Assembly: GCA_003212695.1 (NCBI GenBank)
Contig: QCPC01000003.1
Span: 65,141 to 121,559 of the forward strand
Source of the DNA: Prochlorococcus sp. AG-436-C13
GTDB taxonomy: Bacteria > Cyanobacteriota > Cyanobacteriia > PCC-6307 > Cyanobiaceae
Reading direction: 5' to 3'
Length of the DNA stretch: 56,419 bases
Shown here piece by piece: positions 4,395 through 16,531 of this stretch (positions within the stretch are counted from its first letter, which is position 1; each line of letters opens with the position of its first letter). Position numbers and translations under genes: made by a program. A model generated the notes under the pieces. That model made no database searches. It was not told where the DNA came from and saw only the letters and a list, made by a program, of their open reading frames with translations.

Positions 4395-4812
4395 CATTTC
4401 AAGTGATCTCAGCACCTTCCTGAACTCATTAACTACTTTCCCTTCCTAATCCATAACAATCTTTAAATTAGCAACTTTCTTCTATTTAATACATATAAAA
4501 GTTTCTATATAACTAAACTTGGGTGTTTTGTAATGTAGAGATATTAATTTTATACCCTCTCAAAAGGAGTGATCTTGCAATTTGGGCAATGCATATATTT
4601 CCTTGCCCGAAAAAACTCTTGAAAGTTCTTGGATACTGATCCCTAGGCTTCACCATTTAATAGCAGCACATAGTTCAGTCATCGGTCTTCCAAAAAACAC
4701 TCAAGACTAATTGGATCACTTAAGTCTGCTTTCTAAGCCAACTTAACCATAAAGTTCTAATTTTCAAGTAATTGCTTGTGGTTTTCTGAACTAGTTATGT
4801 AAAATTAAAAGT

Positions 4813-4855
4813 GGAGAGTTGGTCGAGTGGTTTATGGCTCTAGTCTTGAAAACTA
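4813..4855 (+). pseudogene. 5' half of the split host tRNA-Ser(UGA)
   Basis: Positions 4813-4840 match the 5' half of the complete tRNA-Ser at 13559, from the acceptor GGAGAGT through the D-arm; the match continues with two substitutions to 4855 and breaks just after the anticodon stem-loop (next bases CCGAC). Homology also extends roughly 75 bp upstream (about 4737-4812 against 13482-13558), so the original promoter region is still here. The half cannot make a functional tRNA. Joined to 13876-13919 it would give a fully paired tRNA-Ser(UGA). Confidence 0.85.
4841..4855 (+). repeat. Left attachment core (att)
   Basis: TAGTCTTGAAAACTA, identical to 13861-13875 and differing at two positions from the corresponding stretch of the intact tRNA (13587-13601). 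It covers the anticodon loop plus part of the stem, a classic tyrosine-recombinase crossover site within tRNA genes. Confidence 0.8.
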
Positions 4856-4993
4856 CCGACGAACTTCAAAAAGAATTTTAGAAAACGCCCAGAAACACTG
4901 ATACAGCTAATAAAATCAAGATATAACTAGGTTTGTAAGATTCTCAACTTCAACAGTTTACAAGCAATTTCTTATATGGTTTTATAAAAAAGT

Positions 4994-5040
4994 GGTCAAC
5001 CTTGGGTCATTTTACCGACAGTGGTCAATAGCGGTCAACC
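4994..5040 (+). repeat. Paired GGTCA repeats, left end
   Basis: Four GGTCA motifs start at 4994, 5005, 5023 and 5033, so they fall in two pairs spaced 11 and 10 bp, about one helical turn each. They overlap and precede the integrase GTG start at 5021. Similar pairs occur near the other end (13707-13811). The arrangement resembles arm-type binding sites for a tyrosine recombinase or its directionality factor, or an autoregulatory operator; the function is inferred. Confidence 0.6.
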
Positions 5041-6229
5041 AAACCATCGACGTTCTAAAAGCAGCTCTGGTTCTGAAGACCAGAGCCAAAGACCATTGAG
5101 TAGAACTCAAGAGCTAATAGATGTCACCAATAAAGACTTACGATTCCGTGGACATAAAGCCAGCCTAGAAATAGTTAAAGAATCTATTTTTATCCGAGGA
5201 ACTTTTCCTAATGGAGATGGAACTAAGACTAGAAAAAGAATATCTACAGGACTAAAAGCTGCTATTAAAAGTGTCGCAACAGCGGAGAATAGGCTCTTAG
5301 ATTTACTAACTTCAGTAAAAAATTTAGGAGTAATTCCAGAAACATTACCTTGGGAAAATAAGAAAACTCTTCAAAAGGGATATCCAAAAATAAAAGCTAA
5401 AGAAGCAATCAAACTTTTAAAAGATGATTTCTTCAAAGTTGAAACTGTAAATCCCAAATCAAGAAAGAACACTTGGAGCATTATGCAGAATTGCTTTAAT
5501 AAACTTGATTCTGGGGCTTACATAACCAGCGACTATTTAATTGCGATACTTCAAAAGGAAGTACCTCACCCTATAACTGGAGTAGAAAGACCCAATTTTC
5601 GAGTCAAACTACATCAGTATTACAAGAGGCTTGGGAAGCACATCGGCCTGCCAGACATAGACAAGATCGACAAAGTTAAAGCAGAAAATTACGAGCCAAA
5701 GAAAAGAGATATTCCAGTTCAAAAGGATCTCTTGGAATTAGCAGTCAAATTAAGATCAAACAAAAAATATGGCTGGCTTACTGCTGCAATGATCGTTTAT
5801 GGATGTAGACCCAGCGAGACACTCAGTCTCAACCCTAATAAAAATGGAACTGCCACCTGTTTTACATTAAAAAAGAAAAAAGCCTTACCTACTAAAAGGA
5901 CAGCATTAGCACTCCCTAGTGAATACGTTAAGAAACTTGATTTATACAATATTTCTAGGGAATTGGAATTTAAGAAACCAGAAGATTTCGACCCAGTAGT
6001 AGCAAAAAGACTTACCGAAGCTTGGGGGAAATGGTTGCAAAGGCAAAAACCCGACCTACAACTTTATGATTTAAGACATGCTTGGGCTACGAGATCAATT
6101 CAAGCTGGAGTGCCTTCGGCATTAGCAGCAAAATGTCTTGGTCATAGCATCAAGGTCTTCGAGGAAACTTATCTCCAATCTTTAAATGAGAATGACATTG
6201 CAATCTTTGCAGCAGAAGCAAAGATTTAA
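5021..6229 (+). CDS. int: Site-specific tyrosine recombinase (element integrase)
   Basis: Expected to catalyse integration and excision at the tRNA-Ser anticodon core. The 402-residue protein has an N-terminal arm/core-binding portion (about 30-225) and a C-terminal catalytic domain with R263 (YGCRPSE), a lysine in TLKKKK (284-287), YDLRH (R352; the usual first histidine of box II is Y349), H375 (LGHS) and nucleophile Y384 (EETYLQ). It begins at GTG 5021; the frame is open upstream to 4988 but without a better start. It reads inward from the left att core, as in elements where integrase abuts the attachment site. GGTCA repeats over its start suggest self-regulation. Confidence 0.92.
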   Translation: MVNSGQPNHRRSKSSSGSEDQSQRPLSRTQELIDVTNKDLRFRGHKASLEIVKESIFIRGTFPNGDGTKTRKRISTGLKAAIKSVATAENRLLDLLTSVKNLGVIPETLPWENKKTLQKGYPKIKAKEAIKLLKDDFFKVETVNPKSRKNTWSIMQNCFNKLDSGAYITSDYLIAILQKEVPHPITGVERPNFRVKLHQYYKRLGKHIGLPDIDKIDKVKAENYEPKKRDIPVQKDLLELAVKLRSNKKYGWLTAAMIVYGCRPSETLSLNPNKNGTATCFTLKKKKALPTKRTALALPSEYVKKLDLYNISRELEFKKPEDFDPVVAKRLTEAWGKWLQRQKPDLQLYDLRHAWATRSIQAGVPSALAAKCLGHSIKVFEETYLQSLNENDIAIFAAEAKI

Positions 6230-6237
6230 CTGATCAT

Positions 6238-6522
6238 TTATCTAAGTCTTTTATTGTTGTACCATTCAACCCATTCATTATATTTTTCACCACTAAGACC
6301 TTTGCGTCTTAATTCTTCACCTATACACCAACTTTGGTTTGTATATGTATTCATAATACTTTCCCTTAAACAATCGCTATTTATTTTACTAAAAGTTGAT
6401 CTGTCCGGATTGTTTTTCCAATAGTAATTTTCATATTCTTTTATCCCATATTTTGCGCCTACTGCGATTACTCCGATTGCAATTATCCAAACCCCTATAG
6501 CAGTTATTTTATTCGTATTCAT
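6238..6522 (-). CDS. Small single-pass membrane protein of the element
   Basis: Unrecognised 94-residue protein with one N-terminal membrane segment (residues 6-25, ITAIGVWIIAIGVIAVGAKY) and a polar tail carrying two cysteines and a WVEWYNNKRLR end. It converges on the integrase with only 8 bp between stops. No function can be inferred beyond membrane location; cargo or superinfection roles are possible but unsupported. Confidence 0.55.
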   Translation of the reverse strand: MNTNKITAIGVWIIAIGVIAVGAKYGIKEYENYYWKNNPDRSTFSKINSDCLRESIMNTYTNQSWCIGEELRRKGLSGEKYNEWVEWYNNKRLR

Positions 6523-6686
6523 AAAAGATGAGCTAATTGCCCTTTATTTTAAATCGATAGTAAGAAGACTAGGTAACTTTTTTAATCCATCTGGAAAGAA
6601 CATCATTTTTCTTCTGGCCTTTTAGAACTGGCTTGAGCAAATTAGAGTTCCTTTTTCGTGGATATTCCTCGTCTTGATATCGGTCT

Positions 6687-7142
6687 TCAGCCAGGTTGAA
6701 CATCAATTACCTCTGGTGCTTTTCCTCCTTCAAGAGCATCAAGAGCTTCACGAATTTTTGCCATTTCTTTTCTATTCTCACGATCAACAATTCCTTGTTG
6801 AAGAATTTTGAAGGCTGTATCAATCGCCTGGACTTTTGCGTAAGACCGAGTGTTTTTGTCTAAAGCAATATCAATTAACTCTTGTGCAAGTGCAGGAGCA
6901 GAATCTGCAAATTTCTGATGAGAATCAGAAAGATTCAGATTAATTGCTTGTTGTATGAAATTGTCCGCATCTCGATGCCTCCGCCACTCCCGAAGATTTT
7001 GTGTTGTTGTTTCTCCAATGGCAGCAGCTTCAATCCAATTAGCCCCATTTGCTCTAGCAATAAAGGCTTTTTGGATATTCGGGGGGAGATCCATTTTCTC
7101 CCGCCTCGGTTTACCTCTTCTTCTTGGCATTAATGTAGTCAT
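6687..7142 (-). CDS. Terminase small subunit-like DNA-binding protein
   Basis: A 151-residue protein with the layout of phage small terminases: a basic N-terminus (MPRRRGKPRREK), a helix-turn-helix segment (about 22-55: IQKAFIARANGANWIEAAAIGETTTQNLREWRRH), a helical oligomerisation segment (ALAQELIDIALDKNTRSYAKVQAIDTAFKILQQG) and an acidic C-terminal tail that would contact a large subunit. No large terminase is present, so, as in PICI-type satellites, it may redirect a helper phage's packaging motor to the element. Its ATG directly follows the stop of the upstream gene (TAAATG), indicating translational coupling. Another HTH protein of similar shape cannot be excluded. Confidence 0.65.
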   Translation of the reverse strand: MTTLMPRRRGKPRREKMDLPPNIQKAFIARANGANWIEAAAIGETTTQNLREWRRHRDADNFIQQAINLNLSDSHQKFADSAPALAQELIDIALDKNTRSYAKVQAIDTAFKILQQGIVDRENRKEMAKIREALDALEGGKAPEVIDVQPG

Positions 7143-7631
7143 TTACTTTTGCCATTCAGCTAGGCCACTAACGCCCCATTGCTGCCTGGCAAAAATAACT
7201 TGTTCTTGAGGCAGGTTTGGCAGTTGGCCTTGAAGTGCTTCAAAAGCTTTCTTCTCTTCTAGAAATCTTTTGCGGCCTTGCTCTGCTTCAACAGCAAGCC
7301 GTGCATCATCCTGTTCTGCGCCTAAGGTTTCACATTGTTGGGCAAGATGCTCCAGATTGGCAGCCCGTAATGCAGGAGCATCACCCGCTTCTAAAGTTCC
7401 AGCTCGTCGTCTCATTTCTACGGCAACAGGTAGAGGTGTAGAACCTAAACCGCTATTCCCAAAGTGATTCTGGTACTCTTTGCCGCCATTGTAATTTTCA
7501 TAAGCTAAGCGAACTGTTAATGGTAGATCGTCAGGTTTCTTTGGTGTAACTATTTCGTTTGCTAGATCAGGAAATTCACTTTGGATGAATTTGTGAAATC
7601 CTGCGGTGTTATCAAAAACTGGAAGTTCCAT
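7143..7631 (-). CDS. Element protein with alanine/glutamate-rich coiled coil, unknown
   Basis: Unrecognised 162-residue protein. Residues 1-70 are mixed, and about 75-140 form a long helical, Ala/Glu/Gln-rich stretch (MRRRAGTLEAGDAPALRAANLEHLAQQCETL...), probably a coiled coil. It sits in an operon between the zinc-ribbon-like 69-aa protein and the terminase-like gene and abuts the latter. Its GC content is visibly higher than the host's. A role with packaging or helper interference is possible only by neighbourhood. Confidence 0.6.
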   Translation of the reverse strand: MELPVFDNTAGFHKFIQSEFPDLANEIVTPKKPDDLPLTVRLAYENYNGGKEYQNHFGNSGLGSTPLPVAVEMRRRAGTLEAGDAPALRAANLEHLAQQCETLGAEQDDARLAVEAEQGRKRFLEEKKAFEALQGQLPNLPQEQVIFARQQWGVSGLAEWQK

Positions 7632-7658
7632 GAAGTAAGTAATAAATAGAATTTGTTT

Positions 7659-7868
7659 TTATAGAGATTTAGTTGGCCTATAATGACCTAATCTTTTATC
7701 CCTAAGTGTTTCTGGACTTGTCCCCCCTTGCTGAGCTTTGTGATAAGCCATTTCTGCCCATTGATATGCTGCTTTAGTATTAGTTCCAAAGAGTTGTAGG
7801 CCACATTTGGTACATCTCTGCATCAAATTAGAAGGATGCATGTATGCTTCCCAAGTTGGATCGCTCAT
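7659..7868 (-). CDS. Small CxxC protein of the element, unknown
   Basis: Unrecognised 69-residue protein with a single CTKC knuckle at residues 19-22, perhaps half of a zinc ribbon that dimerises. It starts the three-gene minus-strand operon leading to the terminase-like gene (28 bp to the next gene). A 9-bp direct repeat (ATGCAAACT) at the start codon and again about 20 bp upstream may be regulatory. Confidence 0.5.
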   Translation of the reverse strand: MSDPTWEAYMHPSNLMQRCTKCGLQLFGTNTKAAYQWAEMAYHKAQQGGTSPETLRDKRLGHYRPTKSL

Positions 7869-8040
7869 GCAAACTTTTAGGGGGACTATGCAAACTATAG
7901 CTTACTTTTCTATGTTCTATCTTAATAAATATCTTCTAAAGATTATTGTAGTTAGTAATTAATAATTAAGGTCTTTATTTTCTTTAATTAAGTAATAGGC
8001 AGGCCGCTAATAACTGTGTAAAAGTGTTACCCTCCCCCCT

Positions 8041-8140
8041 TAATTAGATTCACTAAATGTTAAATAGATGGTATGATTATCCGTAAGGTTCACATACGTG
8101 TGTGAACTTATCAATTTAGGAAAACTTACGAAATAGTCCA
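8041..8140 (+). promoter_or_regulatory. Divergent control region with 20-bp operator-like palindrome
   Basis: Between the divergent operons starting at 7868 and 8141. The near-perfect palindrome GTTCACATACGTGTGTGAAC (8088-8107, one mismatched pair) lies 33 bp before the 8141 start, downstream of a -10-like TATGAT at about 8072. A second inverted pair, CGTAAG (8082-8087) and CTTACG (8125-8130), brackets it. This looks like a repressor operator controlling the plus-strand genes; the binding protein is unknown. The remainder of 7869-8040 is AT-rich without other features. Confidence 0.5.
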
Positions 8141-8536
8141 ATGACAATTTGCTCTATTCAAGAGCTGGAGACATCCAGCTTGCGGGAACTCCTGCGTAAA
8201 AATTGCCCTGACTTTGATCTTCAAGAATCTAACAGTTGCTTCCAAGCTGTTATAGAAAAATTTGAAGATTGCCCTGAAGGATTAGCTGACTTTGATACTT
8301 CAGATTGGCTCAATATGTGCGAGCCATACAACTATCAATTGTTGGATCGGTGGGAAGAAAATCAAGATGACATTATTCAAATGTTTGAAGAATTTAAAAT
8401 CGCCTACGGGTTCGAGACAACACTGGAAGCATTGCGATTTGAACTTATAGAACATCCACTTGACCTGGCTATGGCCATGACAAATGCAGCTATGACTTTT
8501 GCAGCCAGGACACTCTTAGCAGTCCTAGAGGAGTAG
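8141..8536 (+). CDS. Highly acidic element protein, unknown
   Basis: Unrecognised 131-residue protein with 28 Asp/Glu against 8 Lys/Arg (net about -20), three or more cysteines and a helical C-terminus (LDLAMAMTNAAMTFAARTLLAVLEE). Small, strongly acidic proteins of mobile elements are sometimes DNA mimics that block restriction or repressors, but no family motif is seen here and this is speculation. It is the first gene behind the operator-like palindrome, as expected for an early gene. Confidence 0.6.
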   Translation: MTICSIQELETSSLRELLRKNCPDFDLQESNSCFQAVIEKFEDCPEGLADFDTSDWLNMCEPYNYQLLDRWEENQDDIIQMFEEFKIAYGFETTLEALRFELIEHPLDLAMAMTNAAMTFAARTLLAVLEE

Positions 8537-8538
8537 GT

Positions 8539-8602
8539 CTGAGTTTACGTTTTTTGCTGTGGGTCGCTAGTTATTGCAGGAATTGCTGAGTTTACGTTTT
8601 TT
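8539..8602 (+). repeat. Two 17-bp direct repeats
   Basis: CTGAGTTTACGTTTTTT occurs at 8539-8555 and again at 8586-8602, 47 bp apart, in the gap between the acidic protein and the minimal recombinase. Possible roles are binding sites for the recombinase encoded just downstream, or an operator. Both copies are exact. Confidence 0.65.
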
Positions 8603-8665
8603 ATGCCAGTGATACCAGTTCAGTTGACCTTCTCTTTATTTCGTTAACTCAAGCCGTGATTAAAA

Positions 8666-9244
8666 ATGAAAATTGATGGACAAGGTCAGGCTGAAGTCTT
8701 AATGCCTGATGAACTAGAAAAACTTTTAGATAATGCTCCTTGCTCAAGAAGTAGGGCATTATTTGCTCTGATGATTTTCAGTGGTTCGAGAATTAGTGAG
8801 TCGCTCCAGCTTCGATGGGGAGCGATTCAAGAATCACAATTGATATTCAAAAGAGAAACAACAAAAACAAAAACTAGCCGTGAGATTCTTCTACATGATC
8901 GGGTAGTAACTGAATTAAAAAACTACAGGCAATATTGGATTTCTCGTTATAAGAAAGAGCCAACCTCCAGGGACTTTCTATTTGTGGGTCGCTTTGGTTT
9001 CTCAGAGCCATTAACTAGGCAATGGGCGCACAAGGTATGGAATAAATCAGTTAAGACAGCAGGTTTAAGGAAAGGAACAAGCTTACATACACCTCGACGA
9101 AGCCTTGCGACTCGAATGCACTCCAAAGGAATTGGCTTAAAAACTATTGCCAGCTTCACAGGGCATCAAAGCCTGGATCAATTATCTACTTACATCTCAG
9201 TTGACTTGAAGGAAAAGATGAAAGCTTTGGACGCTTTGACTTAA
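8666..9244 (+). CDS. Minimal tyrosine recombinase (catalytic domain only)
   Basis: A 192-residue protein consisting essentially of the catalytic domain: R42 (SGSRISESL), lysine in KTKTSRE (67-69), H141-TP-R144 box II, H167 (FTGHQS) and nucleophile Y176 (LSTYISV), so all active-site residues are present. It lacks the N-terminal core-binding domain of normal integrases. Compact recombinases of this type occur as XerD- or FimB-like resolvases and invertases. It may resolve element multimers, invert DNA or be a second integrase. It follows the acidic protein on the same strand with a repeat-bearing spacer. Confidence 0.88.
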   Translation: MKIDGQGQAEVLMPDELEKLLDNAPCSRSRALFALMIFSGSRISESLQLRWGAIQESQLIFKRETTKTKTSREILLHDRVVTELKNYRQYWISRYKKEPTSRDFLFVGRFGFSEPLTRQWAHKVWNKSVKTAGLRKGTSLHTPRRSLATRMHSKGIGLKTIASFTGHQSLDQLSTYISVDLKEKMKALDALT

Positions 9245-9245
9245 A

Positions 9246-9440
9246 GCTTCTGATCCTTCATAACCTTTGCTTCTGATCTTTCAGAAGCGAACATTCGCTT
9301 CACATCTTTGTGAAGCAAACTTATCTAACCTTCAAGGCCGAAAGGCACAACTGGTGAGGAACCACCAGTAACACCAACGGGTAATGACTTACTTGGGATG
9401 AAGGGGAAAGATGCCTGACCAAGTCCCCTCTTGGGTGGCG
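9246..9440. other. Hairpin cluster, candidate origin or structured RNA
   Basis: No gene, but stacked inverted repeats: GCTTCTGA-TCTT-TCAGAAGC at 9269-9288, GCGA-ACAT-TCGC at 9287-9298, and GCTTCACA-TCTT-TGTGAAGC at 9297-9316. The first and third are near copies sharing the TCTT loop. Further stems are ACTGGTG/CACCAGT (about 9351-9370) and AGGGGA/TCCCCT (about 9402-9430). It lies between the minimal recombinase and the replication genes, so a replication origin, a recombination site or a small RNA are candidates. Confidence 0.5.
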
Positions 9441-9455
9441 ACCCACTTCTTTCTT

Positions 9456-9677
9456 TTATGTATTAAAGGCGGGATTTCGATCTTCAACTTTGATAATCAA
9501 TTCCCATGGTGAAGTAGTTGGAATTGGATCATTAGCCCCAATAACATGAAGCTTCAACTCAGGTGGTTGAACTAGAGGAACGATCCGATTTAGTCGCTTT
9601 CTTAAATTTTCTAGCTCTCTTCTAGTAGACATGAATGGGCCGATACATTTCCTACAGTCTAAATGCAATTTTTTCAA
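9456..9677 (-). CDS. Small element protein with CxxC motif, unknown
   Basis: Unrecognised 73-residue reading frame beginning at TTG (9677); an ATG at 9632 would give a 58-residue protein lacking the CRKC motif. The sequence has a basic helical part (RRELENLRKRLNRIV) and a beta-like C-terminus. It lies downstream of the primase gene on the same strand, separated by the iteron-like repeats. Confidence 0.4.
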   Translation of the reverse strand: MKKLHLDCRKCIGPFMSTRRELENLRKRLNRIVPLVQPPELKLHVIGANDPIPTTSPWELIIKVEDRNPAFNT

Positions 9678-9800
9678 TGTGAAAATTCTATGGTGGTGAT
9701 TAGTTTTGCGCAGGGTAGTGTATGACTAAAGGATTTCAGGAAGTTCCACAAGGATAAATAAAATAAGTTAGTTATATCAGTTGTTTATAGATATTTAGTA

Positions 9801-9942
9801 TTTAGGATTTCACTGGGACTTTCTTGGGATTTCAGGATTTAGATAATCCCAATTTCCCAAATTAATCCCACCTAAATCCCGACTAAATTTCGTTAAAATC
9901 TATTGGTATCATTAACTCTTCTGGAGCTTTTTCCTAAATCCC
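9801..9942. repeat. Iteron-like GGGATTT/AAATCCC repeats
   Basis: A dense series of short related repeats: GGATTT at about 9805, GGGATTT at 9826-9832, GGATTT at 9835-9840, and on the other strand AATCCC at 9845-9850, 9864-9869, 9875-9880 and 9937-9942, plus variants GGGACT and TTTCCC. The two orientations face each other across about 9842. They lie directly downstream of the primase-helicase gene, where satellites and plasmids often keep their origin, so this is a candidate replication origin (inference). Confidence 0.5.
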
Positions 9943-12194
9943 TAGCGAATAGACTTACCCTGGCCTTCCAAATATTCTTTAATTTCATCCTGGTAAGTAG
10001 TCATATCAACTTGAAGTCTTTTGCAACCAGCTTTAGTTAAATACCACCTTTTCCGAGTGTTTTCAACGAGTTTTTGATTACGGATTGCGGTGAGGTTATT
10101 AGCGATAGTGTTTTTAACTCCACCATCAATACCCTCAGTAATTTCTTGAGTAGAAGCACCAGAGTCTTGTCTTATCCAAATTTGTTCAAGTATGAGAGTT
10201 GTTCTATCTTCTGCCTCTGCTGGAGGAACTAATTTATAAAGCCCATAGTTTTCATCCATGGTGATATTAAATTTCCTGGATTGTTCACCTCTTAGCTTTT
10301 GAATTTCTACCTCTGCATATTGGCCTAATTCCTTGTGTTCTTTTTTTCTCAGATTGATAATTGCATAAGGTATTTGAACAATATTTGAATTGCCTCCAGC
10401 AGCATCAATCCCCATATTTGCAACACTTGCACCAGGCTTAGGGTGATGTATCCAAATCAGGGCAACATTAAAGCGAGCTGCAATTGCTTGCATTAGTCGC
10501 ATTACAGTTCCTACGGGGCCAATACCAAAATCAATACCAGCAAGTTCCAGTATTTTTTTAAGTGAATCTAGAGCTAGTAGGCGGTAAGGAACACCAGTAG
10601 GATGACCACGCTCTAATTGATTCATTAGTTCATGGAGGTTGCTAATAGTGAAGCCCCAAGGTGGTTCACCTGTATCTTTATTTGCTCCCCAAAATGTAGT
10701 GTGCTTTTCCCATTCAGCTTGTTTAGGCGGTTTAAGTTTTTTGATATATGCCTGAGCCATACCTAGCGCCCCATCTTCACCATCAGAACCGCACCAAAGC
10801 GTTGCACCTTGATTCTCTATAGAAACACCATCTTCTTTATCAAAGAGGTTGTTATGGCCCGTAAAAACGGCATAAGAAAGAGCCAGGGCAAATGTAGTTT
10901 TACCTGCACCAGCAGGCCCATAAATAACATGATCTCTACCAGCAAGAGTGAAGCCTTTTAGCTGAGGTTTTAACTCTTCATTTGGTGCAAGTTGAGAACC
11001 TAATGTTCTATGTTTGCGCTCGCCTCCATGATTACCAAGAGGTAGACCATGCTCTTCAGCGAATAATTCAAATAATCTTTTATCAACTTCTTCTTTGGGG
11101 ATTCTACGGCCGTATAAACGAGATCTTAAATAATGCCTTTTGTTCCAAGAGCCATTTGATTTTTCTAATTGATAAAGCTCTTCAACAATCTCGGCAATTT
11201 CTTGAACAGGGTCTTTCTGCTCAACTTGTTCTTCTTTATCGGGGAAATCAATCAGTCCTTGAGGGGATTTTTTACAGTAGTGGCCAAAAAAGGTATCTAT
11301 TGTAATTCCATCATTTCTACCTTTAAAACTCGCCCAAGTTTTATAGCAATCATCATCACCTTTGAAGTTACTTTGCAAAGCACTCCAATCTCTCCAATGC
11401 TCATAGTGCATCCAGTCATCACCTAATTCCCAAGACAAGTGATGTAGAGCCATTCCAATATCAAGCCAAGCCTTTCTGGGATATTCAAAATCCTCATTGT
11501 TGTCCTGAGGCGTTAAGTATCTTTCAAGGTGTGATTCAACCCTTGAAGAGTCATTAACTCCTTTCTCGTAAGATCTTCTGAACTTAAATAAATTTGCTTT
11601 AGGTGGAACCTTAGGAGCAGATAATTCAGCCCATTTTTCAAGAAACCATTCTGGAGCTACTGCTATATCAACTTGAGCAGGAGAACGACCTGTTAGCCAT
11701 TGATATTGTCTTCCTGAGTCATGCAGTCCAGCTATCACACTTTGACCAGTCCATAGGATTTGGCACTTACTACAATTATCTTTTTGAAGATCAATCTGAT
11801 CAACGACACCCCACCATTGTTCTGGAACTCTTAGTACCAACTGATAACGACCAGGAGTACCAGAAGTCCAGGTAACAGTCTTAGGTAAGTCTTTTATGCT
11901 ACGGCCGATTTTATCTTCAAAACTTTCTGGAGCGTCTTCACCATCAGGATCAATAAAAACTAATCCATTACCTTTAACACCATGAAGACAACCAACACCA
12001 GTCTTCTTGATTTTGCAAACTTCTTCAAGGCTGTAGGGCCAATCTATCCATTTTTTACCATTTGGGGGTTTTAAAGGAGCTTTTGGATTTATCTCCCATT
12101 TTCCAGTGACTTCATCCTTTACCGATAATCCAAGAGGAACAAGCCGACAATATTCTGGGAGACCTTTTAAATGTTCTTTTAAATCAGCAGCCAT
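9942..12194 (-). CDS. Primase-polymerase / RepA-type helicase replication protein
   Basis: A 750-residue multidomain replication protein. Residues about 10-190 form a prim-pol (bifunctional primase/polymerase) domain with acidic metal ligands in FIDPDGED (D82, D84). About 225-305 match a PriCT-type domain (W..IGMALHH...CYKTWASFKG). About 400-650 form a RecA-like helicase with Walker A GPAGAGKT (426-433), Walker B LLALDS (D543) and WIHHPKPG (581-588). About 665-735 is a winged-helix end. It would prime and unwind the excised element, comparable in logic to the P4 alpha protein. The RHH gene upstream overlaps it by 11 bp. Confidence 0.9.
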   Translation of the reverse strand: MAADLKEHLKGLPEYCRLVPLGLSVKDEVTGKWEINPKAPLKPPNGKKWIDWPYSLEEVCKIKKTGVGCLHGVKGNGLVFIDPDGEDAPESFEDKIGRSIKDLPKTVTWTSGTPGRYQLVLRVPEQWWGVVDQIDLQKDNCSKCQILWTGQSVIAGLHDSGRQYQWLTGRSPAQVDIAVAPEWFLEKWAELSAPKVPPKANLFKFRRSYEKGVNDSSRVESHLERYLTPQDNNEDFEYPRKAWLDIGMALHHLSWELGDDWMHYEHWRDWSALQSNFKGDDDCYKTWASFKGRNDGITIDTFFGHYCKKSPQGLIDFPDKEEQVEQKDPVQEIAEIVEELYQLEKSNGSWNKRHYLRSRLYGRRIPKEEVDKRLFELFAEEHGLPLGNHGGERKHRTLGSQLAPNEELKPQLKGFTLAGRDHVIYGPAGAGKTTFALALSYAVFTGHNNLFDKEDGVSIENQGATLWCGSDGEDGALGMAQAYIKKLKPPKQAEWEKHTTFWGANKDTGEPPWGFTISNLHELMNQLERGHPTGVPYRLLALDSLKKILELAGIDFGIGPVGTVMRLMQAIAARFNVALIWIHHPKPGASVANMGIDAAGGNSNIVQIPYAIINLRKKEHKELGQYAEVEIQKLRGEQSRKFNITMDENYGLYKLVPPAEAEDRTTLILEQIWIRQDSGASTQEITEGIDGGVKNTIANNLTAIRNQKLVENTRKRWYLTKAGCKRLQVDMTTYQDEIKEYLEGQGKSIR

Positions 12195-12390
12195 CTCTTC
12201 TGAAGCCCTCCTGCTCTGCCGCCCAGGTCAAGAGCCTTCTTATAACTGCGCCATAATCTCTCTTTTCCATCAAAGCTTGAGTACGTAGCCACGTATTCAA
12301 AGGTTTACTACAACGGAAATTCATATGTTGATTAGTTGGCGCACCAAAAACCTCGGAGCGATAAAAATCTTCTTTTTCTTGTGCGTTCAC
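12184..12390 (-). CDS. Ribbon-helix-helix (CopG-like) small protein
   Basis: A 68-residue protein whose MNFRCSKPLNTWLRTQALMEKRDYGAVIRRLLTWAAEQEG portion has the strand-helix-helix spacing of RHH regulators. The start is GTG at 12390; an internal ATG at M23 is an alternative that leaves just the RHH fold. It overlaps the primase gene by 11 bp, implying translational coupling and probably copy-number or expression control of replication. A TTAAC-G-GTTAA palindrome just upstream (about 12408-12418) is a possible operator. Confidence 0.65.
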   Translation of the reverse strand: MNAQEKEDFYRSEVFGAPTNQHMNFRCSKPLNTWLRTQALMEKRDYGAVIRRLLTWAAEQEGFRRDGC

Positions 12391-12420
12391 AGTTTATTAA
12401 CGGTTAATATAGAAATAGTA

Positions 12421-12460
12421 AACAAAAAGTAGGGAGGTTAGTTAACATTTAACCTCCCTA
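12421..12460 (-). terminator. Rho-independent terminator of the excisionase operon
   Basis: Read on the minus strand, a perfect 11-bp stem (TAGGGAGGTTA, arms 12430-12440 and 12450-12460) with a 9-nt loop is followed by C-TTTTTGTTT. It lies 56 bp past the stop codon of the excisionase-like gene at 12516 and separates that operon from the RHH/primase operon. Confidence 0.85.
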
Positions 12461-12515
12461 ATCGTTAAACTAAAGATTACAAGAATTTATAAGAAATTAC
12501 TTGAACTAATAGACA

Positions 12516-12806
12516 CTAACTAAAGCCAATATTTTCTTCATAGTGACGTTTTACCTTTTCAGAATCGAACTTATAAATGTTGTACTTACCCCGTTTCTTA
12601 GCCTTGATCATTTCGTCTGGGAACTTGCCTTGATGCACCAGATTTAAAATGCTCCTTTGTGACATGCCAAGCATCTTGGCTAATTCAGCAGAGCTAACCC
12701 ACTTATGAACTGGAGGTTTTACTCCCCCATAACCATTAACTTTTTCAGTTAAATGTTGAACAACTCCAATAAGGAGATCCACTTTTTGTTCAAGATTGCT
12801 GGTCAT
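12516..12806 (-). CDS. xis: Excisionase-like helix-turn-helix protein
   Basis: A 96-residue protein from the ATG at 12806, which overlaps the upstream gene's TGA; a GTG two codons earlier (12812) is possible. Residues 1-30 form a leucine-rich helix (LEQKVDLLIGVVQHLTEKV). About 37-85 form a winged HTH of the MerR/excisionase class (SSAELAKMLGMSQRSILNLVHQGKFP...KYNIYKFDSEKVKRHY). Such proteins are recombination directionality factors or regulators. It is the last gene of a four-gene coupled operon and has its own terminator. Confidence 0.78.
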   Translation of the reverse strand: MTSNLEQKVDLLIGVVQHLTEKVNGYGGVKPPVHKWVSSAELAKMLGMSQRSILNLVHQGKFPDEMIKAKKRGKYNIYKFDSEKVKRHYEENIGFS

Positions 12807-13003
12807 CACCACTGCCCCTCCCCTATGTAGTTGTAGCTCTCAAAAAGGATTTTCTTGTAATTCTCAATTGCATCGAGATGGTGTTTCACCTCTTTTAGCT
12901 TTTCTTGTCGATAGAATTTTTCGGCATCTTTAATGCAGAAACGGTGCATCTCAATTGCTTCCAAACAAGATTTCTTGCTTGGGGTTGGATTCTTTCTAGC
13001 CAT
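12806..13003 (-). CDS. Small element protein in excisionase operon, unknown
   Basis: A 65-residue protein starting MARKNPTPSKK; the frame extends further upstream to 13057, but the preceding residues overlap another gene and the ATG at 13003 follows a purine-rich CGGGAGGG. It is helical and basic (RFCIKDAEKFYRQEKLKEVKHHLDAIENYKK). Its start overlaps the stop of the 53-aa gene and its stop overlaps the excisionase start. The MARKN N-terminus is shared with the 70-aa protein at 13163. Confidence 0.6.
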   Translation of the reverse strand: MARKNPTPSKKSCLEAIEMHRFCIKDAEKFYRQEKLKEVKHHLDAIENYKKILFESYNYIGEGQW

Positions 13004-13157
13004 CATCCCTCCCGAAATCAGTAGGACAGTCAGCCAGGATCCTCCAGCAATAATCACTGCCGAAATAACGCAGGTTCAGATAGTCCTGCGCATCTTGATA
13101 ATTTGGAAAGACACGCTCTCCAATCCTCCAAATAGGAGAAATTTTTAACTCTTCCAT
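12996..13157 (-). CDS. 53-residue element protein, unknown
   Basis: An unannounced short frame from ATG 13157 to TAG 12996, beginning MEELKISPIWRIGERVFPNY and ending DFGRDDG. Support comes from packing: it begins 5 bp after the stop of the 70-aa gene and its last codons overlap the start of the 65-aa gene. No strong ribosome binding site is seen, so translational coupling is likely. No family is recognised. Confidence 0.55.
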   Translation of the reverse strand: MEELKISPIWRIGERVFPNYQDAQDYLNLRYFGSDYCWRILADCPTDFGRDDG

Positions 13158-13162
13158 TACTG

Positions 13163-13375
13163 TTACGCAGATATTCCCTTTGCCTTGATGACTTCATTTA
13201 AAACAGGTACGTTTCCCTCTTCCCATTTGATGCCATTGTATTTTTCCTGAGAAACAAAAGCATCCCAAGCCTTAGGAGATTCTTCTGTATTAGGTGAATA
13301 CTTAACTTCTATTGGAGTTCCATCTCTTAAAAGAGATTGATTCTTTTGAGGATAACGATTGTTCTTACGAGCCAT
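13163..13375 (-). CDS. First gene of the excisionase operon, unknown
   Basis: Unrecognised 70-residue basic protein (MARKNNRYPQKNQSLL... ending IKAKGISA). It heads a compact operon of four small genes reading leftward to the excisionase-like gene. It resembles a small DNA- or RNA-associated protein only by charge. The promoter should lie in 13376-13436. Confidence 0.55.
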   Translation of the reverse strand: MARKNNRYPQKNQSLLRDGTPIEVKYSPNTEESPKAWDAFVSQEKYNGIKWEEGNVPVLNEVIKAKGISA

Positions 13376-13436
13376 ACATAGGTAGGGGTTGTCAGATATC
13401 GCCCGTCATCCCGTTGAGATAATTCTCGTCAGTAGG

Positions 13437-13488
13437 AAGAGTTTTAAAAAAAACTCTTTGAAGGTTCCAACCTTCGCTTGGTGCCAAG
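13437..13488. other. Three consecutive perfect hairpins before tRNA-Ser
   Basis: AAGAGTTTT-AAAA-AAAACTCTT (13437-13458), GAAGGTT-CC-AACCTTC (13460-13475) and CTTGG-TG-CCAAG (13477-13488) stand back to back about 70 bp upstream of the complete tRNA. The first ends in a short T run and may insulate the tRNA promoter. The split gene's upstream copy (4737-4812) lacks these hairpins, so they belong to the element. Confidence 0.55.
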
Positions 13489-13558
13489 TTAACCCGAAAA
13501 TTCTAAATTTCAAGTAATTGCTTGAAATTTGCTGAACCAAGCCTGTAATATCAAAAGT

Positions 13559-13645
13559 GGAGAGTTGGTCGAGTGGTTTATGGCTCTGGTCTTGAAAACC
13601 AGCAGGGATGCAAGTCCCTCGGGGGTTCGAATCCCCCACTCTCCG
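13559..13645 (+). tRNA. trnS-UGA: tRNA-Ser(UGA), complete, carried by the element
   Basis: An 87-nt class II tRNA. The acceptor GGAGAGT (13559-13565) pairs with ACTCTCC (13638-13644) before discriminator G13645. The anticodon stem CTGGT/ACCAG encloses loop CTTGAAA with anticodon TGA at 13593-13595. The long variable arm AGGGA-TGCAAG-TCCCT and the T arm GGGGG-TTCGAAT-CCCCC are intact; CCA is not encoded. It lies inside the two att cores, so it travels with the element and presumably supplies tRNA-Ser(UGA) while the host gene is split. Its upstream 75 bp are homologous to the host promoter region at 4737-4812. Confidence 0.95.
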
Positions 13646-13706
13646 TTCTATAACGGGGATACAGGCCATATTTGATTGTATTTAATATCCCTCTATTTAT
13701 TAATTA

Positions 13707-13811
13707 GTGACCAAAAGTTGACCGAATTGGATAATACTTTAGAAAATTTCCAAAAAAATAAGCAATTTTACGACAAATAATCACATGTAAATTTCGGTCA
13801 TCCTTCGGTCT
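13707..13811. repeat. Paired GGTCA repeats, right end
   Basis: Inverted copies (GTGACC at 13707-13712, TTGACC at 13718-13723) and direct copies (CGGTCA at 13795-13800, CGGTCT at 13806-13811) form two pairs, each 11 bp apart. They mirror the two pairs at the left end (4994-5040) and lie between the complete tRNA and the right att core, which supports 13861 as the element's true boundary. Confidence 0.6.
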
Positions 13812-13860
13812 TTTTACTTCAAAAGAATCCTATAATCCATTGGTATGACTAAAGCGTCTA

Positions 13861-13919
13861 TAGTCTTGAAAACTAGCAAGGGTGCAAGTCCTTCGGGGGT
13901 TCGAATCCCCCACTCTCCG
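13861..13919 (+). pseudogene. 3' half of the split host tRNA-Ser(UGA), with right att core
   Basis: Starts with the 15-bp core TAGTCTTGAAAACTA (13861-13875) and continues through variable arm, T arm and acceptor to the discriminator, close to but distinct from the intact copy (AAGGG-TGCAAG-TCCTT variable arm instead of AGGGA/TCCCT). Sequence 5' of the core is unrelated to a tRNA. Combined with 4813-4840 it gives perfectly paired acceptor and anticodon (CTAGT/ACTAG) stems, so this is the displaced host 3' half. Confidence 0.85.
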
Positions 13920-16024: not shown

Positions 16025-16531
16025 ATGGAAAATACTTGGGGCACAGCTAGAGATGAATGGGTTGGCAAAACCACTATTGCTGAAGAGACTTCTCTATGGG
16101 CAATTGATTGTTTGAATAGAAATGAACAGGCAATATACGAAATAGAGCAAATCGCAAAAAAAGGACCCAATAATGAACTTGATATAAAGTTGAAAGAATT
16201 AAAGCAACTAATTAAAACCGAAATAATTAAAAAAGAAAATAATCTAGACGACTTATCTCTAAACACCACAAATTCAGCGAAACTTCAAGTTTCTGTTCCT
16301 TCTAGCCTAAATTATCTAATGAAAGCATGGGCTGCAGCAGAAGGAAGAGATTTGTCAAGTGTGGCACTTCAGTGTCTTGAGATCGGCCTAAGGCTAATGA
16401 AGAGCAAAGGATCAATTCCATCAGTAGCTATTGAACGATACAACTCAACATGCAAAAAACGTATTGCCTTAGCTGAAGTAAATAATCTATGGGATAGATA
16501 TGAATCTAAAAATATTAAAGCAGGAGAATAG
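16025..16531 (+). CDS. RHH-domain-like protein, possible autoregulator
   Basis: A 168-residue protein with a helical N-terminal half (about 1-80) and a segment KLQVSVPSSLNYLMKAWAAAEGRDLSSVALQCLEIGLRLMKSKG (about 88-131) that has the strand-helix-helix spacing of ribbon-helix-helix domains. The C-terminus is helical and basic. No toxin partner is obvious, although a small overlapping or adjacent gene follows at 16536. Tandem 11-bp repeats upstream suggest it controls its own promoter. Confidence 0.6.
   Translation: MENTWGTARDEWVGKTTIAEETSLWAIDCLNRNEQAIYEIEQIAKKGPNNELDIKLKELKQLIKTEIIKKENNLDDLSLNTTNSAKLQVSVPSSLNYLMKAWAAAEGRDLSSVALQCLEIGLRLMKSKGSIPSVAIERYNSTCKKRIALAEVNNLWDRYESKNIKAGE

Follow-up and report, generated by a model that had tools for sequence, protein, structure and literature searches.

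An element that appears to replace rather than patch its tRNA-Ser(UGA) target gene in Prochlorococcus

Introduction

How does a cell stay supplied with a tRNA that it probably needs when an integrating element breaks the gene in its anticodon loop and leaves both halves outside its own ends? The question is raised by a window of 56,419 nucleotides (the whole stretch of DNA analysed, positions 65,141 to 121,559 of contig QCPC01000003.1) from Prochlorococcus sp. AG-436-C13, in which an element of 9,020 bp, measured from core to core, lies within the anticodon loop of a tRNA-Ser(UGA) gene, with the two host halves outside and a complete tRNA-Ser(UGA) inside. Elements that use tRNA genes are expected to patch their target, and a unit that destroys and replaces it departs from that expectation. 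The split-and-replaced layout is confirmed in the window; it is real and it recurs, and in this variant of tRNA-targeted integration replacement takes the place of patching. The account that we hold to be probable is that a satellite-like element, whose attachment site (attP) would contain the core only, destroys tRNA-Ser(UGA) at both junctions and supplies a complete replacement.

The host genome (G000 below) is a 1.55-Mb draft of 38 contigs with an estimated completeness of 79.4%. Copies of tRNA-Ser(UGA) were surveyed in 14 genomes of the same genus, with the gene rebuilt from the window halves as the query; tRNAs were called with ARAGORN, and protein families were assigned with Pfam and PHROG. 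Two of the surveyed genomes, AG-412-P08 (G003) and AG-436-M02 (G011), recur throughout; both are drafts and, from the type of their names, presumably single-cell genomes.

The split tRNA gene

The 5' half comprises positions 1-43 of the tRNA, that is 28 nt followed by the 15-bp core, and the 3' half comprises the core followed by 44 nt (Table 1). The first-pass annotation, made from the letters of the window, had proposed that the outer halves share this core exactly, and the 15-mer TAGTCTTGAAAACTA indeed occurs twice in the assembled genome, at 4841-4855 and 13861-13875 only; two other GTCTTGAAAAC sites of the host genome (on contigs C11 and C21) lie within no tRNA gene. When joined, the host halves give a fully paired tRNA-Ser(UGA) fold, as had also been expected, and the rebuilt gene matches at 87/87 nt the genes of G002, G010 and G100 (the last from another genus) and the inner copy of G003. 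Because of this identity, the match between the halves is not due to chance.

Inside the element, the complete tRNA-Ser(UGA) is the only tRNA that ARAGORN detects in the window. Its anticodon stem reads CTGGT...ACCAG, AGCAGGGATG, and mixing either host half with this allele had been claimed to produce a mismatch. Inspection of the sequences by eye upholds this for the host 5' half with the inner 3' half, which gives an A29.C41 mismatch in the anticodon stem, but not for the inner 5' half with the host 3' half, which gives only a tolerated G.U wobble. The tRNA is accompanied by a duplicated upstream stretch (13483-13599 against 4737-4853, 117 bp at 85%), of which about 76 bp lie 5' of the tRNA, matching the 75 bp or so that had been thought to travel with it. 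Neither element junction rebuilds a tRNA, and the Islander signature, a complete tRNA at one end and a displaced fragment at the other, is absent; what the locus does share with tRNA-targeted elements is an integrase inside, a 15-bp core that stands as a direct repeat at its two ends and, in G010, an empty site.

Empty sites and the number of tRNA-Ser(UGA) genes

An intact tRNA-Ser(UGA) is present in nine of the 14 same-genus genomes (G000, G002, G003, G004, G007, G009, G010, G011 and G012), and among these nine the halves are absent from six and present in three, namely G000, G003 and G011. The remaining five, which are 54-89% complete, gave weaker matches or none, and one match each from four of them is a tRNA-Ser(GGA) or (GCU) according to ARAGORN. 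The flanks of the window element, once joined, align unbroken to G010 at 93.75% over 176 bp, with a further 233 bp farther downstream at 77%, and on this alignment the G010 locus is the empty site with a rebuilt gene that had been predicted for related strains. In G007, a plain tRNA stands between the upstream prepilin-peptidase gene and the same downstream genes.

The 99%-complete relatives G002 and G004 have one tRNA-Ser(UGA) each. The matches in G002 comprise three serine tRNAs, with the anticodons UGA, GGA and GCU, and since no CGA serine tRNA turned up in that genome in the rebuilt-gene search, tRNA-Ser(UGA) is probably needed to read both UCA and UCG codons. A second tRNA-Ser(UGA), on whose absence the first-pass annotation had made the importance of the inner copy depend, was not found in the assembled part of the window host genome, estimated to be 79% complete.

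Two further copies of the unit

A 22-bp element-end pattern, searched for in named genomes, led to AG-436-M02 and AG-412-P08. Units of 2,516 bp (G003) and 2,490 bp (G011) occupy the same locus there, again with the halves outside and a complete tRNA inside, and their ends resemble those of the window at 83% (G003) and 85% (G011) on the left and at 81% (G003) and 78% (G011) on the right. The integrase is reduced to an N-terminal remnant, which in G003 is a 79-aa open reading frame (ORF) and in G011 consists of frame-broken pieces.

The outer 5' half of G011, together with the adjoining upstream bases, and its outer 3' half belong to the type found in G004, G009 and G012, while the inner tRNA is identical at 87/87 nt to the inner tRNA of the window. 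Since the outer halves represent a different host allele and the inner tRNA is that of the window, the whole tRNA, with its upstream region, travels with the element, in agreement with the first-pass annotation. Among 20 tRNA-Ser(UGA) strings from the retrieved loci, the window inner allele occurs in 12 loci, all of them of G000 or G011. The crossover can be placed within GTCTTGAAAAC from the junctions of G011, where the left one (attL) joins host TGG to element CTA and the right one (attR) joins element TAG to host CA. The idea that the inner TGG/CCA stem confers immunity to the integrase was considered and is weakened, as the G011 element entered a host gene of the TGG type.

The outer halves of the three copies differ in their state. 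Those of the window show no changes relative to the G002/G010 gene. Those of G003 show five, all in the 3' half (positions 70, 71, 79, 83 and 87), and when joined they have one mismatch each in the acceptor and the T-stem, besides an altered T-loop, although ARAGORN still calls a tRNA-Ser(tga). In G011, where both halves are damaged, the joined sequence is mismatched in the acceptor and pairs poorly in the anticodon stem, its anticodon loop is one base short, at six bases, and ARAGORN returns an undetermined tRNA. From these faults we read the damaged outer halves as presumably non-functional, so that a normal tRNA would no longer result from excision in G003 and G011. Taken together, the three copies resemble the stages of one course that begins intact and ends locked in.

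An ORF resembling an outer-membrane beta-barrel protein (366 aa in G003, 362 aa in G011) follows the integrase remnant and fills much of the interior; its Pfam scores in G003 fall just below the cutoffs, and surface or phage-receptor cargo is a possible identity. An end-pattern match with three mismatches in G006 (44 bp, 79.5%, E 0.004) was rejected as a chance similarity, the stretch being coding-like by eye and its contig being without a tRNA-Ser.

Relatives of the integrase and rival explanations

Matches to the window integrase at E<=1e-10 occur in 135 of 300 genomes of the family, and many of these, at 23-28% identity, are probably a chromosomal recombinase. Thirty regions were retrieved, one of them for the G006 end-pattern match and the other 29 for chosen integrase matches. 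The 29 integrase regions contain an intact tRNA-Ser(UGA) (16), only a fragment of it (two), tRNA-Arg(CCU) (four), tRNA-Arg(UCU) (one), tRNA-Pro (one), or neither an intact tRNA nor a tRNA-Ser fragment (five). Across 18 chosen genomes with related integrases, a 3' fragment only was found in four (G080, G097, G217 and G317), a 5' fragment only in four (G031, G293, G307 and G310), neither in nine and both in one (G087), counts from which fragments may be missing through decay or at the ends of contigs. In a midpoint-rooted integrase tree, whose supports were not inspected, 3'-half and 5'-half suppliers are mostly separate, the window integrase falling loosely with the 5'-half suppliers and the 5'-half supplier G310 elsewhere. 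Together, the fragment survey and the tree suggest that the window layout is derived.

Such suppliers bear on the rival explanation that survives best, which we nevertheless consider unlikely: the window would hold a tandem composite, with a supplier of a 5' half and promoter and a supplier of a 3' half side by side, of which the second would have shrunk to the 212-bp right end, and the inner tRNA would be their joint product. Both kinds of supplier are present in the integrase family, and G087 is a real composite case (G087:C1:583579-622848; loci L110, L098 and L128). It contains a 5' half at 584989, an integrase, an intact tRNA-Ser(UGA) at 604636, a second integrase and a 3' remnant at 622816-622848. 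From the intact tRNA it is 20 kb to the upstream 5' half and 18 kb to the downstream 3' remnant, and the locus looks like a tandem of 5'-half-supplying and 3'-half-supplying elements. This locus shares the 5' half, the intact tRNA-Ser(UGA) and the 3' remnant with the window but differs in that an integrase stands on each side of the tRNA and the fragments are about 38 kb apart. The full-length integrase of the window, by contrast, stands at the far left end and does not adjoin the intact tRNA. Moreover, about 60 bp on both sides of the inner tRNA resemble the host locus and look like one contiguous host segment (13497-13706 against G010, 83% over 210 bp), which favours capture of a whole gene, and both ends recur jointly in three genomes, once between halves of another allele, so that the unit now behaves as one, whatever its origin.

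Less probable still is a vertical relic, that is, one ancient insertion inherited in three lineages and not mobile. The locus is the same in all three, G003 and G011 share the truncated integrase and the cargo ORF, and element and flank identities lie in a similar range. Against this, the window halves are still an exact gene and those of G011 represent another allele, which already strains the explanation, and G010, with its close flank, is empty; the differing states of the outer halves likewise argue against a single shared ancestral insertion.

Several points weigh against the account of a mobile, target-replacing unit. Element identity between G003 and G011 (87.5%) is near that of the flanks (84.6% upstream, 78% downstream), and because these values are close, divergence alone is no proof of separate insertions; the argument for them rests on the outer alleles and their state. 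The inner tRNA of G003 has a host-type sequence and would therefore have been converted or separately captured from a different donor. The candidate integrase arm sites described below are almost lacking at the right end in G011 (one site). A second tRNA-Ser(UGA) could be missing from the window host assembly, since the genome is 79% complete, and the instances number only three, all in draft assemblies.

A functional tRNA made from the split gene by trans-splicing or in an intron-like manner, with the inner copy as a spare, would account for halves that rejoin into a perfect tRNA but is scarcely credible, as the halves of G003 and G011 are damaged while the inner copy stays intact and we know of no trans-processing of tRNA halves 9 kb apart in cyanobacteria. 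An assembly or amplification artefact, conceivable in a draft of 38 contigs, is equally far-fetched, the same layout being present in two other assemblies with different sequences.

Some further loci deserve description in their own right. G087 has a third integrase, on the upstream side of its 5' half. At L107 (G307:C86), a 5' half with a changed anticodon loop is directly adjoined by an integrase, and an intact tRNA-Ser(UGA) follows 3.4 kb on; no 3' half was found in this 6.8-kb contig, and the locus may be an ordinary supplier of a 5' half or else be related to the window layout as an older form. L102 (G172:C1:787001-807000) holds an intact tRNA-Arg(UCU) with several partial copies, mostly 3' parts, which suggests a tandem island array. 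A small protein encoded downstream of tRNA-Ser(UGA) in both the window (16025-16531) and L107 (6282-6518, reverse complement) has, by eye, a common stretch (VSVPSSL..GRDLSSVALQC in the window); the window copy has no Pfam match, and the protein serves as a locus marker.

Parts of the element

Table 1. Features of the element and of the split host gene, in window coordinates.
Feature	Position	Strand	Evidence
Upstream (promoter) region of the host tRNA-Ser(UGA), left outside the element	4737..4812	+	4745-4855 93.75% to upstream region and 5' half of the intact G010 gene; 85% to element copy over 117 bp, some of the 5' half included
Host tRNA-Ser(UGA) 5' half, attL side, core at its end	4813..4855	+	100% to positions 1-43 of the 87-nt G002/G010 gene
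Left core TAGTCTTGAAAACTA, anticodon loop and inner stem	4841..4855	+	Exact repeat at 13861-13875 only
Left element end, four GGTC-containing repeats, possible integrase arm sites	4856..5060	+	4820-5246 conserved at 83-85% in G003 and G011
Tyrosine recombinase (integrase), 402 aa, full length	5021..6229	+	PF00589 26.1 bits (cutoff 27.1); phrog_1 integrase 3.6e-13
151-aa protein, terminase-small-subunit-like by eye only	6687..7142	-	No Pfam or PHROG match
Second tyrosine recombinase, catalytic domain only, 192 aa	8666..9244	+	PF00589 90.9 bits
Primase-polymerase / PriCT_2 / AAA ATPase replication protein, 750 aa	9942..12194	-	PF09250, PF08707, PF13481
Arc-like repressor	12184..12390	-	phrog_6506 8.5e-5
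HTH_17 protein, excisionase/Cox-like	12516..12812	-	PF12728, phrog_57, phrog_66, phrog_575; top PHROG, on the same HTH stretch, is a terminase-small-subunit family
Putative element-borne promoter region of the inner tRNA	13483..13558	+	TTGAAA-18-TAATAT at 13522-13551; conserved with G003 and G011 inner copies
Complete element-borne tRNA-Ser(UGA)	13559..13645	+	ARAGORN; identical to G011 inner tRNA
Right element end: about 60 bp host-downstream-like, then GACC/GGTC arm	13646..13857	+	Conserved in G003, partly in G011; G010 homology to 13706
Right core (attR)	13861..13875	+	Exact repeat of left core
Host tRNA-Ser(UGA) 3' half (core + 44 nt), outside the element	13861..13919	+	13858-13919 98% to positions 26-87 of the rebuilt gene

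The putative promoter TTGAAA-18-TAATAT ends 7 nt 5' of the inner tRNA, at a place where the host copies hold TGTAAAAT or TGTATAAT; the 601-bp region scanned contains four promoter-like sites against 1.2 expected, an excess that is weak by itself. GGTC/GACC sites number four at the left end (mean of 0.71 in mononucleotide shuffles) and four at the right end (mean of 0.47) in the window, three and three in G003, and four and one in G011. These clusters are possible integrase arm sites, the motif having been picked post hoc from sequence already inspected.

Phage satellites combine a replication module that lacks structural genes with packaging by a helper. In the window, no capsid gene was found among the ten larger proteins scanned, and primase-polymerase and Cox/HTH genes are present. 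Against phage records, the 750-aa primase shows partial, weak similarity to two Synechococcus phage primases, and the integrase gave no match. In IMG/VR, where records near the window genome may be left out, there were no matches to the exact end pattern or the primase and eight pattern matches to the integrase, none of them confirmed; in named genomes, none of 35 integrase pattern matches was confirmed. The eight element proteins scanned for defence genes yielded none that convinced, with short-stretch matches to mads_1 (7e-7, the HTH protein) and mads_8 (0.0034), and the integrase had no match by sequence among solved structures.

Comparison with known systems

The elements called tycheposons reportedly occupy tRNA sites in Prochlorococcus, with a tyrosine recombinase of a deep-branching clade and a small satellite-like gene set. 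They are like the window element in host, tRNA site, tyrosine recombinase and gene set; two of the same-genus genomes carry the name Prochlorococcus, and the target of the element there is tRNA-Ser(UGA), in keeping with the tRNA sites that tycheposons are said to use. With regard to the deep-branching tyrosine recombinase clade, the weak PF00589 score is only suggestive.

In the Islander scheme, attP holds a tRNA fragment, and integration leaves one complete tRNA and one displaced fragment (PMC4383910). The Islander database lists anticodon-loop 'A' sites in 2083 of 3919 islands, a 3' fragment in 3760 islands and a 5' fragment in 159 (PMC4383910). These classical islands and the window element are alike in their tyrosine integrase, direct-repeat core and anticodon-loop crossover, but the window element, with neither half in its predicted attP, leaves one complete tRNA and two fragments. 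A review of archaeal recombinases states that, in common with every integration event, an uninterrupted tRNA copy is regained (PMC8371274), a rule for pTN3-like integrases from which the window departs. The disruption of a Caldiarchaeum tRNA-Thr gene involves a mobile element that holds a recombinase as well as a tRNA and a tRNA fragment, and altered tRNA genes are proposed to arise in this way (PMC3293823); that case has one 5' fragment and a reconstituted tRNA with an intron gain, and an element-borne whole tRNA does not appear in the accessible text. The layout of two fragments with a tRNA inside is likewise not described in the portions available of PMC10872708, PMC11389934, PMC9897764, PMC4383910, PMC8371274 and PMC3293823, a set that does not cover the paper defining tycheposons, and we do not claim that the layout is unpublished.

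Proposed mechanism and implications

In the replacement of a whole target gene as we propose it, a tyrosine-recombinase element would integrate by a crossover in the anticodon loop of tRNA-Ser(UGA), within a core of 11-15 bp. With an attP made up of the core only and of neither tRNA half, integration would destroy the host gene at both junctions, and compensation would come from the complete tRNA-Ser(UGA) and its upstream region, about 215 bp inside the right end, this inner tRNA presumably being transcribed and the only tRNA-Ser(UGA) of the cell. Excision would rebuild the gene in the window host, and loss of the element would be lethal elsewhere. Carriage of a whole gene may also give the element access to hosts with tRNA halves unable to pair with its own. 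The addiction of the host to the element is something that we infer; the damage to the outer halves in G003 and G011 is what it predicts, and supports it without proving it.

We lean somewhat towards seeing a distinct integration strategy in this. An element that has abandoned the tRNA half and uses only the core would destroy an essential tRNA gene and supply a self-promoted copy; freed from half-matching, it would enter hosts with divergent alleles and make its own loss harmful, and with the decay of the halves the tRNA would be permanently handed to a dead element.

The integrase, the site and the gene set are of a known kind, and the replacement of the whole target gene is what differs. 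Searches for islands would need another signature, namely two fragments with a tRNA inside. For the organisms concerned, such a unit would allow an essential tRNA to be replaced horizontally, and it would give a toxin-free form of addiction that can be tested.

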